Below, in pieces: positions 14,816 to 22,717 of a stretch of 45,615 nucleotides of DNA (position 1 is its first letter; each line of letters opens with the position of its first letter). Source of the DNA: Bacteroidota bacterium (GTDB lineage Bacteria; Bacteroidota; Bacteroidia; B-17B0; Aurantibacillaceae); the NCBI GenBank assembly GCA_025363015.1, contig JANYEQ010000076.1, positions 1 through 45,615 of the forward strand, in the 5' to 3' direction. The position numbers and the translations under genes were made by a program. The notes under the pieces are model-generated. The model saw nothing but the letters and a program-made list of their open reading frames with translations. It was not told the DNA's origin and ran no database searches.

Positions 14816-16306
14816 ATGACTACAACCACAACAAACCAAACTACCAATGTTATTTTAATAGGTGCAGGTATAATGAGCGCTACACTTGGCGTATTTTTAA
14901 AAGAACTACAACCCGAGTTAAACATTATAATTATTGAACGCCTAAACGAAATTGCAGGCGAAAGCTCTGATGCTTGGAATAATGCAGGTACTGGGCACTC
15001 AGCATTTTGCGAATTAAATTATACACCTCAAAAAGAAGATAAATCCATTGACGTGAGTAAGGCTTTAAAAATTGCCTCATCGTTTCAAGCATCTAAACAA
15101 TTTTGGGCTTATTTGGTAGAGCAAAAAAAAATAAGTAGTCCTACTATTTTTATCAATTCCATTCCACATATTAGTTTTGTGTGGGGAGCCGATAATGTTT
15201 GGTATTTGCGTAAACGCCATGCCGAGCTTACAAAACATGCTTTGTTTAAGGATATGCAATATTCTGAAAAATGGAATATACTTGAAAAATGGATGCCTTT
15301 GGTAATGAATGGACGCGACCCAGGTGTAGAAGTTGCCGCTACAAAAATGGAAGGGGGAACAGATATAAATTTTGGCGAATTAACGCGCGCCATGTTTAAA
15401 CATTTACAAAGTTTAAATGGCGTTAGTATTTTATTAAATACCGAAGTGAGAGATATTATAAAACAACAAAATGGGCAATGGAATATTGAAATAAAAGATT
15501 TAATTACACACCACCAACAACAACTAACAGGCAATTTTGTGTTTATTGGTGCGGGTGGTGGCTCGTTACCTTTACTAGAAAAATCGGATATAACAGAGGC
15601 TGAAGGTTATGGAGGTTTTCCGGTAAGTGGACAATGGCTAAAATGCAACAACCCAAAAGTAATTGAACAACATGCGGCAAAGGTTTATGGTAAAGCTTCG
15701 GTAGGTGCGCCACCCATGAGTGTACCACATTTAGATACACGTATTATTAATGGTAAAAAGGAATTATTATTTGGTCCATTTGCTGGTTTTTCTACCAAAT
15801 TTTTAAAAAATGGATCGTATTGGGATTTAACGTCATCTATTGAATTAGATAATATTTTTCCATTATTATCAGTAGGCTTGCATAATATTCCACTAACAAA
15901 ATATTTAATACACCAAGCCACACAATCTCCAGAGGATAGATTAGAGGCCTTACGCGAATACTTACCACAGGCAGTGTTAGAAGATTGGGAATTAGTAGTA
16001 GCCGGGCAACGCGTGCAGGTAATAAAAAAAGATAAAGAAGAGGGCGGTGTTTTAGAATTTGGTACCGAAATTGTATGTGCTGGTGATGGAAGCTTAGCTG
16101 CCTTATTGGGTGCATCTCCTGGGGCTTCAACATCGGTAAGTGTAATGTTAGATGTTTTAAAAAAATGTTTTAGTACACAAATGCAATCGGTACAATGGCA
16201 ACAAAAATTAAAACAAATAATACCAAGCTATCAAAAATCGTTTATTGATGATGAACAACTTTGTGTACAAACAAAAGTAAATACTGATAAGATATTGGAG
16301 TTGTAA
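14816..16306 (+). CDS. mqo: Malate:quinone oxidoreductase
   Basis: A peripheral-membrane FAD enzyme that oxidises malate to oxaloacetate and passes electrons to quinone, bypassing NAD-dependent malate dehydrogenase. The 496-residue protein has the FAD motif VILIGAGIMSATLGVFLKEL at about residues 12-31, IIIIERLNEIAGESSDAWNNAGTGHS split across the second strand, VFIGAGGGSLPLLEKS, GFPVSGQWL, and the C-terminal AGDGSLAALLGASPGASTSV. Size agrees with the family. It is convergent with a T9SS gene 16 bases downstream, with no visible terminator between them. Confidence 0.95.
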   Translation: MTTTTTNQTTNVILIGAGIMSATLGVFLKELQPELNIIIIERLNEIAGESSDAWNNAGTGHSAFCELNYTPQKEDKSIDVSKALKIASSFQASKQFWAYLVEQKKISSPTIFINSIPHISFVWGADNVWYLRKRHAELTKHALFKDMQYSEKWNILEKWMPLVMNGRDPGVEVAATKMEGGTDINFGELTRAMFKHLQSLNGVSILLNTEVRDIIKQQNGQWNIEIKDLITHHQQQLTGNFVFIGAGGGSLPLLEKSDITEAEGYGGFPVSGQWLKCNNPKVIEQHAAKVYGKASVGAPPMSVPHLDTRIINGKKELLFGPFAGFSTKFLKNGSYWDLTSSIELDNIFPLLSVGLHNIPLTKYLIHQATQSPEDRLEALREYLPQAVLEDWELVVAGQRVQVIKKDKEEGGVLEFGTEIVCAGDGSLAALLGASPGASTSVSVMLDVLKKCFSTQMQSVQWQQKLKQIIPSYQKSFIDDEQLCVQTKVNTDKILEL

Positions 16307-16322
16307 TATGTTACAAAAAATT

Positions 16323-18521
16323 TTACTCTTTTATAAATTTAAAAGTTTTATTACCCTCTTTACCTTTTAACTTAACGTAGTACAAACCTATTGGGCTTGC
16401 CTCTAAATTAATTTCTAACAGCTCATTAATAACCATTGATTGATAAACTAACTCTCCTAAACTATTATATATTTCTAATTGGTAAGTTTCATTTTTATGA
16501 TCTAAACTAATATTAAAAATGCCCTTATTTGGATTAGGGTATAATTTTATATTTTCTAAATTAGTATTGTTAGTTTTTATACCTACTGCCATTGAGTTTA
16601 TAACATTTACGCTTAACATATTAGCCGTAACATTTGCCGTAGTACGATAAATGTTGGTATTATTACAGGTTGTAGATTGTGAACCACAGCTTAGTGATAC
16701 CGTTAAACAAATATTATAATAGCCTGCCGCTGAATAAGTATGTACCGGGTAAAAACCTGTTGAAGTTGTTCCATCACCCCAACTCCAAATAGCAGAAACA
16801 GCAGTAGATTGATAATTAGGATAAGCATATCAACTATAATTTTGAGAATAATCTTTATACAAACTAAAAATAGAATTAGCATTGCAACCTGTGTTTGAAG
16901 AGTTAGTAACATTTACAGGAATTACAGTATAATTTGCACAAGGCGTTAAACTATCTACAATAAATAACGAAACATTATATAAACCATTGCTTAAATATGT
17001 ATTGTTTGTTGCTATTATGGCTGAACCAAATGCCGAATTACCGTCACCAAAATTCCAATAATAGTTTGTAAGTGAACTTGTACCTGTTGATAAATCATTA
17101 AAATTTACTAAACCAACGGCACCGTTAGTATAATTAAAATTGGCGTTTAAATTACAAGTAGCGCCTGTAATACTTAAAGGACTTAGCACAACTGTTTTAC
17201 TACATATTGGTGAAAGTGAATCCCAAACAACAAAAGTTGAGGTATATGTACCATTTAAACTATAGGTATGTACACAATTTAGTAAATTTGATTGGGTGCC
17301 ATCGCCAAAATACCAAGTATAATTTGTAGTGCCTGTGTAAGTAATATTAGCGTAAAAACATCCGGTATTATTAATATATGGACCAACTATATATGAATTA
17401 CATCCATAGGCATTTGCAGAAACTCCAATTCCACAGGTAACATTTGTAACAGAAATAGGGATAGTTATAGTATCATTACACCAGCCAGAAACAGAACTAG
17501 TGTCAGTAATTGTTAAATGCACATTATAAACTCCATTGTTAATATAATTATTCGTAATCGGGCTTCCATAACCATGATTACCATCGTCAAAATTCCAGTT
17601 GATATTTGTAATAGTAGAAGAAGATATTGATGAAGATGTATTTGAAAATGTAACCAAACCGTTATTACCTAAAGTGTAAGAAAAATTAGCAGTTAAAGAA
17701 CAAGCTATAATAGAAACTGTATTACTATAAGTAGCATTACAAGTACCTGTTATATCTGTTGTAACAAGCGAAACCGTATAAATACCTGATGCTGTATAGG
17801 AATGCACTGGATTTTGCATAGTGGTGGTTCCTCCGTCGCCAAAATTCCAACCGAAAGTATTACTTGGAGAATAAGGCGATGAATTACCAAAAAAACTAAT
17901 TGTTGCATTTGGCCCAAAATAATATGTAAAAAAAGGATTAACATTACAAGGAAGATTATTTATTAATATGGGTATTGTAATGCTATTATAGCAATAGTTT
18001 AAGGAATCGGTTACGTATAGTGTTACACTATAATTACCATTTGACATATAGGAGTGTGTAGTTGTTGCTGTTTGATAGACAGCTGTTCCATCATCAAAAT
18101 TCCAGCTGTAAGACGTTAATGATGTTGTTCCGGTAGATGTGTTTGAGAAATTAATTACTCCACCTACATTTATTGTATAGCTAAAGTTTGGAGTTATATT
18201 ACAGGTAGAGGTTACGGCTACACTAATAGTTTGTGTGGTTGACGATGTACAGGATGGTCCAGTATTAATAATACTTAAACTCGCCGAATAAACTCCACTA
18301 GCACTATATTGATGACTTGCTGTTGGTCCAATTGCTATTACACCATCGCCAAAAGCCCATGTGTAGTTTGTGCCTGCATTTGTAAATGTGCTTGTGCTTA
18401 CAAAATTAACGTTATTGCTTGGCAAAACGGTATAATTAAAGTTGGCGGTGCATTGGGCTTTATATAAACTGGTTATTAATAAAAAAATAGCCAGAGATAA
18501 TAGTTGAATGTTTCTTTTCAT
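16323..18521 (-). pseudogene. PKD-repeat T9SS type-A secreted protein, interrupted by one in-frame TGA
   Basis: Reading from the ATG at 18521, a signal peptide (MKRNIQLLSLAIFLLITSLY...) precedes seven PKD-type domains, each starting near a Cys and carrying a W-x-F-G/D-D-G core. The frame stops at TGA (16830-16832) inside the seventh PKD. The same frame then continues without interruption (YAYPNYQSTAVSAIWSWGDG ...) to a type-A T9SS sorting tail (NIKLYPNPNKGIFNISL ... GLYYVKLKG) ending at 16323. The stop sits where Trp fits (NYS-stop-YAYPNY), so one change, TGG to TGA, explains it. With Trp restored the protein has 732 residues. Without the tail the truncated product could not be sorted by T9SS. 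Alternatives are read-through or a sequencing error. PKD proteins of this kind are usually surface adhesins or enzymes' accessory regions; no catalytic domain is visible. Confidence 0.85.
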
Positions 18522-18593: not shown

Positions 18594-18633
18594 TAATAAA
18601 CCCCAAAGACTTTAAAAATCTTTGGGGTTTATT
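18594..18633 (-). terminator. Rho-independent terminator of recQ
   Basis: The inverted repeat AAACCCCAAAGA / TCTTTGGGGTTT, with a loop of about ten bases and flanking A and T bases, lies between the recQ stop (18655) and the start of the PKD gene. It separates the two reverse-strand units. Confidence 0.75.
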
Positions 18634-18654: not shown

Positions 18655-20865
18655 TTAATTTCCAAAATCTGATAAAAATTTAATGCGCATTAAGCGAATC
18701 TCTTCTTCGGTATAATCATTTTCGCCCAATTCTTTTAAGGCATCTTTTACGCTACTGGTTTCGCTTTCTTTAAAATAATCCATTACCTCTTCTTGTTTTT
18801 CTTCGTCTATTTCGTTTTCAATGTAGTAGTTAATATTTACTTTGGTTCCGCTCTCTACAATGGTTTCTATTTCGGTTAAAAGCTCTGGTAGTTTTAAATT
18901 TTTACTTTTTGCCATTGCTCCTAAATCAATTTTACGGTCGATGTTTTGAATGATATATACTTTTAAACCCGATTTGTTTACAACAGATTTAATAACCATA
19001 TCTACAGGTCGTTCAATTTCATTTTCTTCAACATACGCTTTTATTAAATCAATAAAAGGTTTGCCAAATTTGGTGGCTTTCCCTGCTCCCACTCCGCTAA
19101 TTTTAGTCATTTCATCCATTGTAATTGGATATTGAATGGCCATTTCTTCTAAGGATGTTTCTTGAAAAATAATATACGGCGGTAAGGCTTTTGCTTTAGC
19201 CGTTTTTTTAACTAAATCTTTAAGCATCGCAAAAAGGGTTTCGTCGGCAGCGCTACTACCACCTTTTCCGCCCGCCATATCGTCATCGTTATCGCTTTCG
19301 GCATTACTATAATCGTGGTCGCGCGTAAATTTAATACTTACGGGTTTCTTTAAAAAAGCATGTCCTTTTTCAGTAACTTTTACGGTACCATACTGCTCAA
19401 TATCTTTTGCAAAAAAACCATTTACAATGGCTTGTCGCATTATGGCTTGCCAAAATTTATCATCCTTATCATGCTCTACACCCTCGCCCCACGTTTTTAA
19501 TAAATTGTGCTTGTGCATTTTTGCATTGGCAGTAAGGTTACCCATTAAAATGTTTATGTTGTCTTTTACTTTGTGTTTCTCTTTTGATTCGATAACACTT
19601 TGTATGGCTAGTTCTAAATCTTCTTTAGCTTCAAATTTTTGTTTTGGATTACGACAGTTGTCGCACATTTCGTTACATCCTTTTTCATCATATTCCTCGC
19701 CAAAGTAATGTAAAATAAATTTACGTCGGCAACTGCTTGTTTCGGCAAACGAAGCTGTTTCAGATAACATTTGCTTTCCAATTTCTTGTTCGGCAACGGG
19801 TTTATCTTTCATAAATTTTTCCAGCTTCATAATATCGTCGTAACTATAAAATGTTACGCAATTACCTTCAGCTCCATCTCGACCAGCTCTACCAGTTTCT
19901 TGGTAATAACCTTCTAACGATTTTGGAATATCGTGATGAATAACAAAGCGTACATCGGGCTTATCTATCCCCATACCAAAGGCAATAGTGGCTACAATTA
20001 CTTTAACGTCTTCCATTAAAAAGCCATCTTGTGTTTTAGCACGTTCTTTAGCATCTAAACCTGCATGATATGGCATTGCTTTAATGCCATTAACTTGTAA
20101 GGCTTGGGCTATTTCTTCTACTTTTTTACGACTTAAGCAATAAATAATACCGCTTTTTTTACCGTTTTGTTTTACGTATTTTATAATTTCTTTAATTACG
20201 TTTTGTTTGGCTCTAACTTCGTAAAATAAATTACCGCGGTTAAATGATGACTTAAATAAGCTAGCAGTCATCATGCCTAAGTTTTTCTGAATATCTTGCT
20301 GTACTTTAGGCGTAGCTGTGGCTGTTAATGCAATAACGGGTACATTGCCTACGGCATCAATTATGGGACGTAAACGGCGGTATTCTGGCCTAAAATCATG
20401 CCCCCATTCAGATATACAATGTGCTTCATCAATTGCAAAAAACGAAATTTTAAATTCTTTAAAAAAAGTTATGTTTTCTTCTTTAGTTAATGTTTCGGGA
20501 GCAACGTATAATAATTTTGTTTTGCCCGATAGAACATCTTTTTTTACAATAGCGGTTTCGCTTTTGTTTAACGATGAATTTAAAAAATGAGCAATACCTG
20601 TTTCGTTACTAAACCCGCGTATAGCATCTACTTGATTTTTCATTAAGGCTATAAGGGGCGATACAACAATGGCTGTACCGTTGCTCATTAACGCTGGTAA
20701 TTGATAGCATAAACTTTTACCACCACCCGTTGGCATAATTACAAAAGTATCTTTGCCATTAAGTACATTTTTTATAATTTGTTCTTGACTGCCTTTAAAT
20801 TTATCAAAGCCAAAAAAACTTTTAAGGGTGTCTAATAATTCGGTGGTTTCTATTTCGGCAATCAT
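18655..20865 (-). CDS. recQ: ATP-dependent DNA helicase RecQ
   Basis: A superfamily 2 3'-5' helicase for recombination and fork repair. The 736-residue protein has Walker [20 protein letters not shown]-box [20 protein letters not shown], the helicase C-terminal ETGRAGRDG motif, a RecQ zinc-binding site ([11 protein letters not shown] ... CNEMCDNC), a winged helix, and an HRDC domain ([16 protein letters not shown] ... [13 protein letters not shown]). A C-terminal extension of about 115 residues follows the HRDC domain and is rich in acidic residues; such tails are common in the phylum. Monocistronic, ATG start. Confidence 0.96.
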
Positions 20866-21511: not shown

Positions 21512-22531
21512 TTAGTGCGATACTGTAAACTTACCGCTTGTTAATGTTAGATTGGTATTACTTTTAATAGTGTAAATATAAATACCCGATATTAATGTAC
21601 TTGTATTAAAATTTGCTTGCCCATTAGTAAATGTGAAGGTATTAATTTTTTTACCGGTTACATCAAATACATCTACAGTATGAGCTGAAGTATTAGCCGT
21701 TTTTAAAGTAATAACATTACTTGTAGGGTTTGGAAACACTACTAAATCACTAATCGTTTCAGTATTTTCGGTTAAACCTACTGGAGTTAAATAATCTGAA
21801 GCAATAGTAGCGTTAGATGCAGTACTTGCCGAACTAATAATTGGAGGTGCTACAACTGTAGAGTTAGATACTGTATAAATTGGTGCTTTACGACCTGGAA
21901 TATAAAAATTATATACATCTTGATTTAATACACCATTGCTAATAAACGCAGTTGGCACTGCAAAATTTATAGTTTGTGTTGATAAAACTCTTAATACATT
22001 TGTAAATGTTTGGCCTGGCAACATTAAGGTACCAAAACCATCGGCCACTGCTGTAGCGCTACCAGTAAACGTACCATTATTGCTTAATGCTGTTAATGTG
22101 CCACCAATTGGTGCTGTTGTTGTTGTACCAAAACTCATTGGGTATTTTGCATAATTTGCTGGAGTTGTATAAGTAATGGTTGCAGGGTTACCAGCAATAA
22201 TAATGTTACCACCATAATACTTTAAATTATTAGCATTGCTTAAATAATAAGATGATTCGCCTGTATTAGCATTTACTACAATGTTTGCAGGGTTATATAC
22301 AGCGTTTGACGAGTTTGCGCCTGTAAAAGCACTAACTGTAGAGGATAATACTACTGACGAAAAATTCCAGGTAACACCTGTACCTGCTACACCTTGACTG
22401 GTATTGGTACTGCTAATAGCTGTCATAGTGTAGGTATCGCTATTTGCTGGTGCATGGTTGGCTTGGGTTAATGTTTGGGCATTTACTGCGGCACTAATAA
22501 TTATTGAACTTAAAAGTAAAATTTTTTTCAT
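21512..22531 (-). CDS. Secreted protein with T9SS type-A sorting domain
   Basis: The 339-residue exported protein has a signal peptide (MKKILLLSSIIISAAVNAQ, residues 1-19), a Ser/Thr/Asn-rich beta body without a recognised enzymatic domain, and from about residue 263 a type-A sorting tail (VVFPNPTSNVITLK, VDVFDVTGKKINTF, LISGIYIYTIKS). The tail sends the protein through the type IX system, where it is normally cleaved and the protein attached to the cell surface or released. The frame extends to 22684, but that longer version would run through tRNA-His, so I take the ATG at 22531, which has a -7 box 24 bases upstream. Confidence 0.88.
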   Translation of the reverse strand: MKKILLLSSIIISAAVNAQTLTQANHAPANSDTYTMTAISSTNTSQGVAGTGVTWNFSSVVLSSTVSAFTGANSSNAVYNPANIVVNANTGESSYYLSNANNLKYYGGNIIIAGNPATITYTTPANYAKYPMSFGTTTTAPIGGTLTALSNNGTFTGSATAVADGFGTLMLPGQTFTNVLRVLSTQTINFAVPTAFISNGVLNQDVYNFYIPGRKAPIYTVSNSTVVAPPIISSASTASNATIASDYLTPVGLTENTETISDLVVFPNPTSNVITLKTANTSAHTVDVFDVTGKKINTFTFTNGQANFNTSTLISGIYIYTIKSNTNLTLTSGKFTVSH

Positions 22532-22554
22532 ATTTTTTTTGTTTTTGGTTTTAC

Positions 22555-22562
22555 CAAATGTA
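22555..22562 (-). promoter_or_regulatory. Likely -7 element of the T9SS type-A gene
   Basis: Reverse-strand TACATTTG fits TAnnTTTG and lies between the tRNA-His terminator and the ATG at 22531, which shows that this gene has its own promoter. Confidence 0.45.
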
Positions 22563-22609
22563 TAAATTTTTTTTGAATAAATTAAATTAAAAACGAAATG
22601 ATATAAACT

Positions 22610-22641
22610 AAAAAAGTACGCTACTGCTAGCGTACTTTTTT
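22610..22641 (-). terminator. Rho-independent terminator after tRNA-His
   Basis: A perfect 13-base stem (AAAAAGTACGCTA / TAGCGTACTTTTT) with a 4-base loop CTGC, directly adjoining the tRNA 3' end. It ends the tRNA transcript and insulates the T9SS gene. Confidence 0.85.
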
Positions 22642-22642
22642 G

Positions 22643-22717
22643 GGTAAGTAATGGGACTCGAACCCACGACCCTCGGTACCACAAACCGATGCTCTAACCA
22701 ACTGAGCTATACCTACC
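22643..22717 (-). tRNA. tRNA-His (anticodon GTG)
   Basis: A full cloverleaf on the reverse strand. The acceptor is GGTAGGTA paired with TACTTACC, in which the extra 5' G pairs with C73, the hallmark of tRNA-His. The D arm is GCTC-AGTTGGTTA-GAGC, the anticodon arm TCGGT-TTGTGGT-ACCGA (anticodon GTG), and the T arm GTGGG-TTCGAGT-CCCAT. The 3' CCA is not encoded (CAA follows), so it must be added after transcription. No integrated element is seen at its 3' end. Confidence 0.95.

Follow-up and report, generated by a model that had tools for sequence, protein, structure and literature searches.

A gene for a PKD-repeat protein with a type IX secretion system (T9SS) sorting tail, from a bacterium of the Aurantibacillaceae (assembly GCA_025363015.1), is interrupted by one in-frame TGA at a position where its full-length relatives carry tryptophan, and we consider it probable (roughly 0.7) that a recent nonsense mutation, changing a Trp codon to TGA, broke this probably dispensable member of a large PKD/T9SS family. 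Throughout, the window denotes the whole stretch of DNA that was analysed, the 45,615 nucleotides of contig JANYEQ010000076.1. In the proposed course of events translation would stop after codon 563, leaving a short product in which the six PKD domains and what is likely an export signal would remain but the sorting tail would be missing. A T9SS product lacking its sorting tail goes to the periplasm and does not reach the surface, and, since the tail is absent, the short product should enter the periplasm rather than arrive at the cell surface.

A single TGA splits one continuous PKD/T9SS frame

On the minus strand of the window, a frame of 732 codons runs from 18521 to 16323, with a TGA at 16832-16830 as its sole interruption. 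The upstream part (16833-18521) comprises 563 codons and has an N-terminus that looks like a signal peptide when the translation is read by eye; the TGA is codon 564 (16830-16832), and the continuing open frame (16323-16829) contains 168 codons, from 16829 to 16326, before a closing TAA at 16325-16323. No second stop was found within the read-through frame, leaving a single lesion in 733 codons. The initial annotation had placed a 563-codon frame (16830-18521, minus strand) and its continuation in the same frame with the TGA as the only break, and these coordinates were right; the 98-codon tail that it described is indeed in frame, but it is only the ATG-started part of a real stretch of 168 codons that also holds a seventh PKD domain.

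At the stop frequency of the window (0.0698 per codon), 168 open codons would occur by chance with a probability of ~5e-6, and the post-stop stretch alone matched both Pfam PKD_4 (41.1 bits, cut-off 27, at 16668-16805) and Por_Secre_tail (49.9 bits, cut-off 27, at 16326-16544); together these results argue that the continuation is not a product of chance. Among 36 likely genes, picked by eye from the 50 open reading frames of the window, the longest open frame following a gene's own stop was this one, at 168 codons, and the next was 49. Searching the window and 400 kb more for stops followed by at least 60 open codons with little overlap by another gene gave 26 frames, of which the other 25 were, by eye, neighbouring genes sharing a frame by chance; only the frame described here has TGA.

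The Pfam matches on the two sides of the TGA bore out the view that a PKD/T9SS protein has been split. PKD_4 was found in seven stretches of the read-through frame, six before the TGA (222.7 bits for the upstream part) and one after it, and the sorting domain lies beyond the stop (in the read-through frame, Por_Secre_tail 46.4 bits, cut-off 27; TIGR04183 49.1 bits, cut-off 23). In its domain order, its scores over the cut-offs and its full-length relatives in the genus, the protein resembles the PKD-repeat T9SS type A proteins (PF18911, PF18962, TIGR04183), whereas it differs from them in having a frame interrupted once and a sorting domain outside the primary product. The host has SprA of the T9SS (TIGR04189, 2359.6 bits, cut-off 200), for which the same profile search gave no match in 14 control genomes. 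It could be argued that the locus makes two functional proteins, one soluble with six PKD domains and the other a tail protein started internally, given that an ATG at 16619 opens the 98-codon frame. We consider this very improbable: the start lies beyond the seventh PKD domain, no signal peptide is seen by eye, so that the product should not be exported, and each of the three full-length relatives has one frame.

Full-length relatives carry tryptophan in the TGA column

Relatives were sought in 60 genomes, 37 of which belong to the genus (the host's own included), and 18 candidates were scored per genome. As expected of a repeat family, every one of the 60 genomes had some match. Full-length matches, at 42-43% identity, appeared among the matches listed in three of the 36 other genus genomes (L022 in G013, L023 in G029 and L024 in G015), all of them unbroken with one frame each, while weaker long matches of about 30% identity were listed in G001 and G030. 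The initial annotation had proposed Trp as the lost residue, and we found Trp at the TGA column in all three full-length relatives, within the motif SQ..SW(Y/F).YP; moreover, of the eight columns where all three agree on W, seven are W in the window too and one is the TGA. Across a looser set of 27 loci, including a paralogue from the host's own genome (L137), W was the aligned residue at 12, N at 6 and each of I, S, T and D at 2, the remaining locus having a gap, and in 13 of the 15 non-W loci a W stood one or two columns off, mostly beside a gap. The best-scoring paralogues within the host genome were only about 37-38% identical, and there is thus no close intact duplicate to explain dispensability, a point against the preferred reading.

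The position of the gene gave little further comparison. Upstream, and on the same strand, lies recQ (18655-20865, minus; Pfam DEAD, RQC, HRDC and RecQ_Zn_bind), separated from the PKD gene by a terminator-like hairpin of 18 pairs (18595-18633, minus). The hairpin was the one found, against a mean of 1.2 in shuffled sequence, so that the count alone is no evidence; its position between the two genes suggests that the PKD gene is probably transcribed alone. On the other side, 16 bases away and convergent, is mqo for malate:quinone oxidoreductase (14816-16306, plus; Pfam Mqo 784 bits). Using recQ as an anchor, we looked through the flanks (6 kb at most, some shorter) of 80 recQ loci: none held a full-length relative of the PKD gene, three showed weak PKD or tail similarity (L079, L085 and L104), and mqo had no match at E 1e-10. 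These flanks thus offered no counterpart of the gene's place. A second protein with a T9SS tail, of 390 codons in one open frame, is encoded at 21512-22684 of the window, also on the minus strand.

The gene belongs to a large family with other damaged members

In this genome at least 126 T9SS tail matches exceeded the cut-off, of 148 listed from the best 150 of 182 candidates; in 14 control genomes the same tail search gave matches in 13 and exceeded the cut-off in 1. Because the family is this large and full-length relatives of the gene are patchy, we read the broken gene as a probably dispensable member. Nine of the at least 126 tails over the cut-off, the present one among them, lie in open frames of fewer than 200 codons. 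Five of the other eight start at contig ends (C6, C59, C74, C101 and C137) and one, on C64, is a complete small gene; the remaining two, both borderline over the cut-off, appear by eye to be frameshifted (C88, L134, at a contig end) and fragmentary (C33, L135).

The paralogue L137 (G000 C42:144-2060, minus), also a PKD/T9SS gene, is interrupted by a lone TAA (1266-1268). In three of its other repeats Gln stands at the place of the TAA, as seen in a motif search that could find Gln or a stop only, and Q was the commonest aligned residue among loci related to it (23 of 89 matches, some places counted twice), which is suggestive only of Gln as the residue that may have been lost there. The mixture of lesions, comprising TGA, TAA, TAG, frameshift-like changes and fragments, is the pattern that ordinary decay gives. 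The initial annotation had offered four options, namely phase-like loss, recent decay, stop read-through and a sequence error; recent decay fits best, given the mixed stop types, the other damaged tails and the fresh sequence after the stop, while phase-like loss found no support, as no repeat tract or switch was seen at the site on inspection of the sequence by eye.

The gene shares with nonsense-interrupted surface-protein genes, taken as recent pseudogenes, a single stop, a frame that is otherwise intact, a patchy distribution and the presence of another stop-split member in the genome, and nothing special was seen to set it apart from them except its tRNA background. We found no paper that joins type IX secretion, a premature stop codon and a C-terminal domain. 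Elsewhere among the genomes, a long surface-type frame of G025 is apparently split by TAG into 475 and 840 codons (L258, 11837-13264 and the frame after it, by eye), a PKD frame of a class-level relative is apparently split by TAG at the Trp of WxFGDG, with 248 codons open before and 504 after (L290, G041 C119:9761-9777, by eye), and a PKD match in another member of the genus has one TAA inside (G018 C11:6650-7189).

The sequence beyond the stop is as well conserved as that before it

Identity to the three full-length relatives was 50%, 42% and 43% after the stop and 40%, 43% and 43% before it (in the same order). We also counted lineage-only changes, defined as changes found in the window alone or in L022 alone at sites with agreement between the two outgroups. 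The part before the stop, with 377 sites, yielded 46 window-only and 68 L022-only changes (p=0.049), the window being the slower, and after the stop, 102 sites yielded 12 and 15 (p=0.70), revealing no accelerated change in the post-stop sequence. With this sequence conserved, unaccelerated and free of a second stop, the lesion is either recent or tolerated, or it is not real. Relaxed constraint is not to be expected after a very recent break, and a sequence error or read-through fits equally; the lack of any sign of relaxed constraint is accordingly one of the points that stand against a recent nonsense mutation.

An alternative is that the TGA entered the assembly as a consensus error or from a minority allele, the majority of cells having an intact gene; this is in our judgement unlikely, though it ranks next after the recent mutation. 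The draft genome consists of 143 contigs and is probably metagenome-assembled like its named relatives; both sides of the TGA are undamaged and have evolved normally, as an error would produce; and two PKD genes of this genome have one clean stop each. Against this, the listed contamination is low (1.33) and the other lesions in T9SS genes of the genome appear to differ in kind. Substitution errors in consensus sequence are, in general, rare. Under the preferred reading, a recent nonsense mutation, we infer that the population truly carries this base, that the gene has lost its function and is dispensable, and that the short product meets the fate described above.

TGA is a stop codon in the host

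The host has an RF2 gene (482.6 bits, cut-off 370) at G000 C109:17054-18088 on the minus strand (L142), in which AGGGGG TTT CTT TGA C forms the programmed frameshift signal and the remainder continues in another frame, and TGA terminates other genes, for example the complete T9SS gene on C64. The presence of this RF2 and the genes terminated by TGA show that the codon is genuinely read as a stop in the host. It is a scarce one: the 36 likely genes of the window end in TAA (30), TAG (5) and TGA (1, the interrupted gene alone). Stop-to-stop frames of 120 codons or more, taken from 20 stretches per group independently of annotation, ended in TGA in 20 of 359 cases in the host (window and 400 kb, the interrupted gene included) and in 76 of 629 in 17 sampled relatives, so that, as raw counts, TGA stops are scarcer in the host. 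This low share may reflect the low GC of the genome (0.321); G013 and G033, alike in GC, had higher TGA shares in small samples (7/33 and 5/54).

A single tRNA-Trp, with anticodon CCA, was found at the loci of 29 tRNA matches (from the best 150 of 308 candidates, in which no tRNA-Val or tRNA-Ile was seen), and no UGA-reading tRNA, including tRNA-Trp(UCA), was present at these 29. None of the 115 PKD_4 matches of this genome contains TGA, and one contains a stop, the TAA on C42. We further searched the 60 genomes for the motif WxFGDG with TGA, TAG or TGG at its Trp; the Trp of the interrupted gene itself stands outside this motif. TGG gave 1689 matches; TGA gave 23, none of them in a PKD frame as judged from frame lengths and peptides by eye, and TAG gave 5, one of which (L290) is a PKD frame by eye. 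As a reversed-pattern control returned 21 for TGA and 26 for TAG, the TGA and TAG counts are at chance level. Within PKD sequences, to which this search was confined, the conserved Trp codon was thus nowhere else seen replaced by an in-frame TGA.

These results bear directly on whether TGA might mean tryptophan genome-wide, through a changed code, or selenocysteine at this site. In favour of such readings, few genes end in TGA (none of the window's 35 other likely genes does), and a tRNA list without tRNA-Val and tRNA-Ile means that a missing tRNA proves little. However, RF2 is present with a programmed frameshift at TGA, terminal TGA stops are in use, the 29 tRNA loci include no tRNA-Trp(UCA), and the relatives carry Trp and not Cys at the site. 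We therefore rejected both readings, which retain next to no probability.

The host tRNA-Trp leaves some room for read-through

The only tRNA-Trp(CCA) found in the host (G000 C95:7192-7263, L174) has anticodon arms TCGGT/ACCGC around a 7-base loop. In our own numbering, 27:43 is a U:C mismatch followed by four further stem pairs, and A24 stands opposite U11; with U27 and C43 unpaired, the anticodon stem is 4 bp long. The 30 best-matching tRNA-Trp loci were read: the stem was 4 bp long in 19 and 5 bp long in 11, two of these last lying outside the genus, and the genus mixes 4-bp forms (U:C, A:C, C:U) with a 5-bp form (G:U).

Such tRNAs are the subject of Fakih et al. 2026 (PMC13092985), and in the parts of that paper drawn on here, overexpressed 4-bp-stem tRNA-Trp increases read-through of UGA in E. 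coli by a factor of about 2.5, G24A is said to favour such read-through, about 6.5% of standard-code genomes are given as having only 4-bp-stem tRNA-Trp, and 13 of 19 orders show lower use of UGA as a stop. The same parts cite earlier in vitro work where a single stem-opening change alone led to no read-through, describe native-level effects as unassessed, and state that RF2 seems to outcompete these tRNAs (PMC13092985). The host tRNA-Trp is like those described there in its unpaired 27:43, its 7-base loop and its CCA anticodon, but the 'Blastocrithidia-like' tRNA-Trp(CCA) subset, as defined in these parts of the paper, is without A9C and G24A, so that the host tRNA-Trp, which carries A24 in our numbering, falls outside it, and the host code is standard.

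Leaky read-through of the TGA by tRNA-Trp thus has mechanistic room, and the presence in the host of a tRNA-Trp with features linked with UGA read-through is a further point against our best explanation. It agrees with this possibility that the residue inserted by misreading, Trp, is the residue of the relatives, that conservation persists beyond the stop, and that TGA stops are scarcer in the host than in the sampled relatives. On the other hand, TGA stop use is alike in genus genomes with 4-bp stems (39/331, 8 genomes) and 5-bp stems (37/298, 9 genomes); TGA is used as a stop and has no other in-frame occurrence at the PKD Trp motif, where 1689 TGG matches contrast with 23 TGA matches, none of which lies in a PKD frame by eye, and this speaks against systematic read-through; and the paralogue L137, the other PKD gene with a clean stop, has a TAA, which this tRNA-Trp would not read. 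The comparison of stem types and the motif search lend no support to an effect of the tRNA in this case. The base directly 3' of the TGA is U, and U after a stop codon is a good termination context, which likewise counts against leakage. Weighing both sides, we regard leaky read-through as doubtful, with a small chance of being the correct account; by analogy with the published tRNAs, a trace of full-length protein made by UGA misreading is possible. Slighter still is the chance that the 4-bp-stem, A24-bearing tRNA-Trp reads UGA often enough to place some full-length PKD protein at the surface, in which case TGA mutations of Trp codons would be partly silent and could persist, as a step towards UGA capture.

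Significance

Taken as a recent nonsense mutation, an isolated broken adhesin-like gene carries little weight beyond annotation, where the locus should be recorded as one interrupted gene and not as two. The consequences at native level of a 4-bp-stem tRNA-Trp in standard-code bacteria are left open in the parts of PMC13092985 considered here, and if the link to the tRNA were true, the gene would be a natural test case for such native-level effects in standard-code bacteria.
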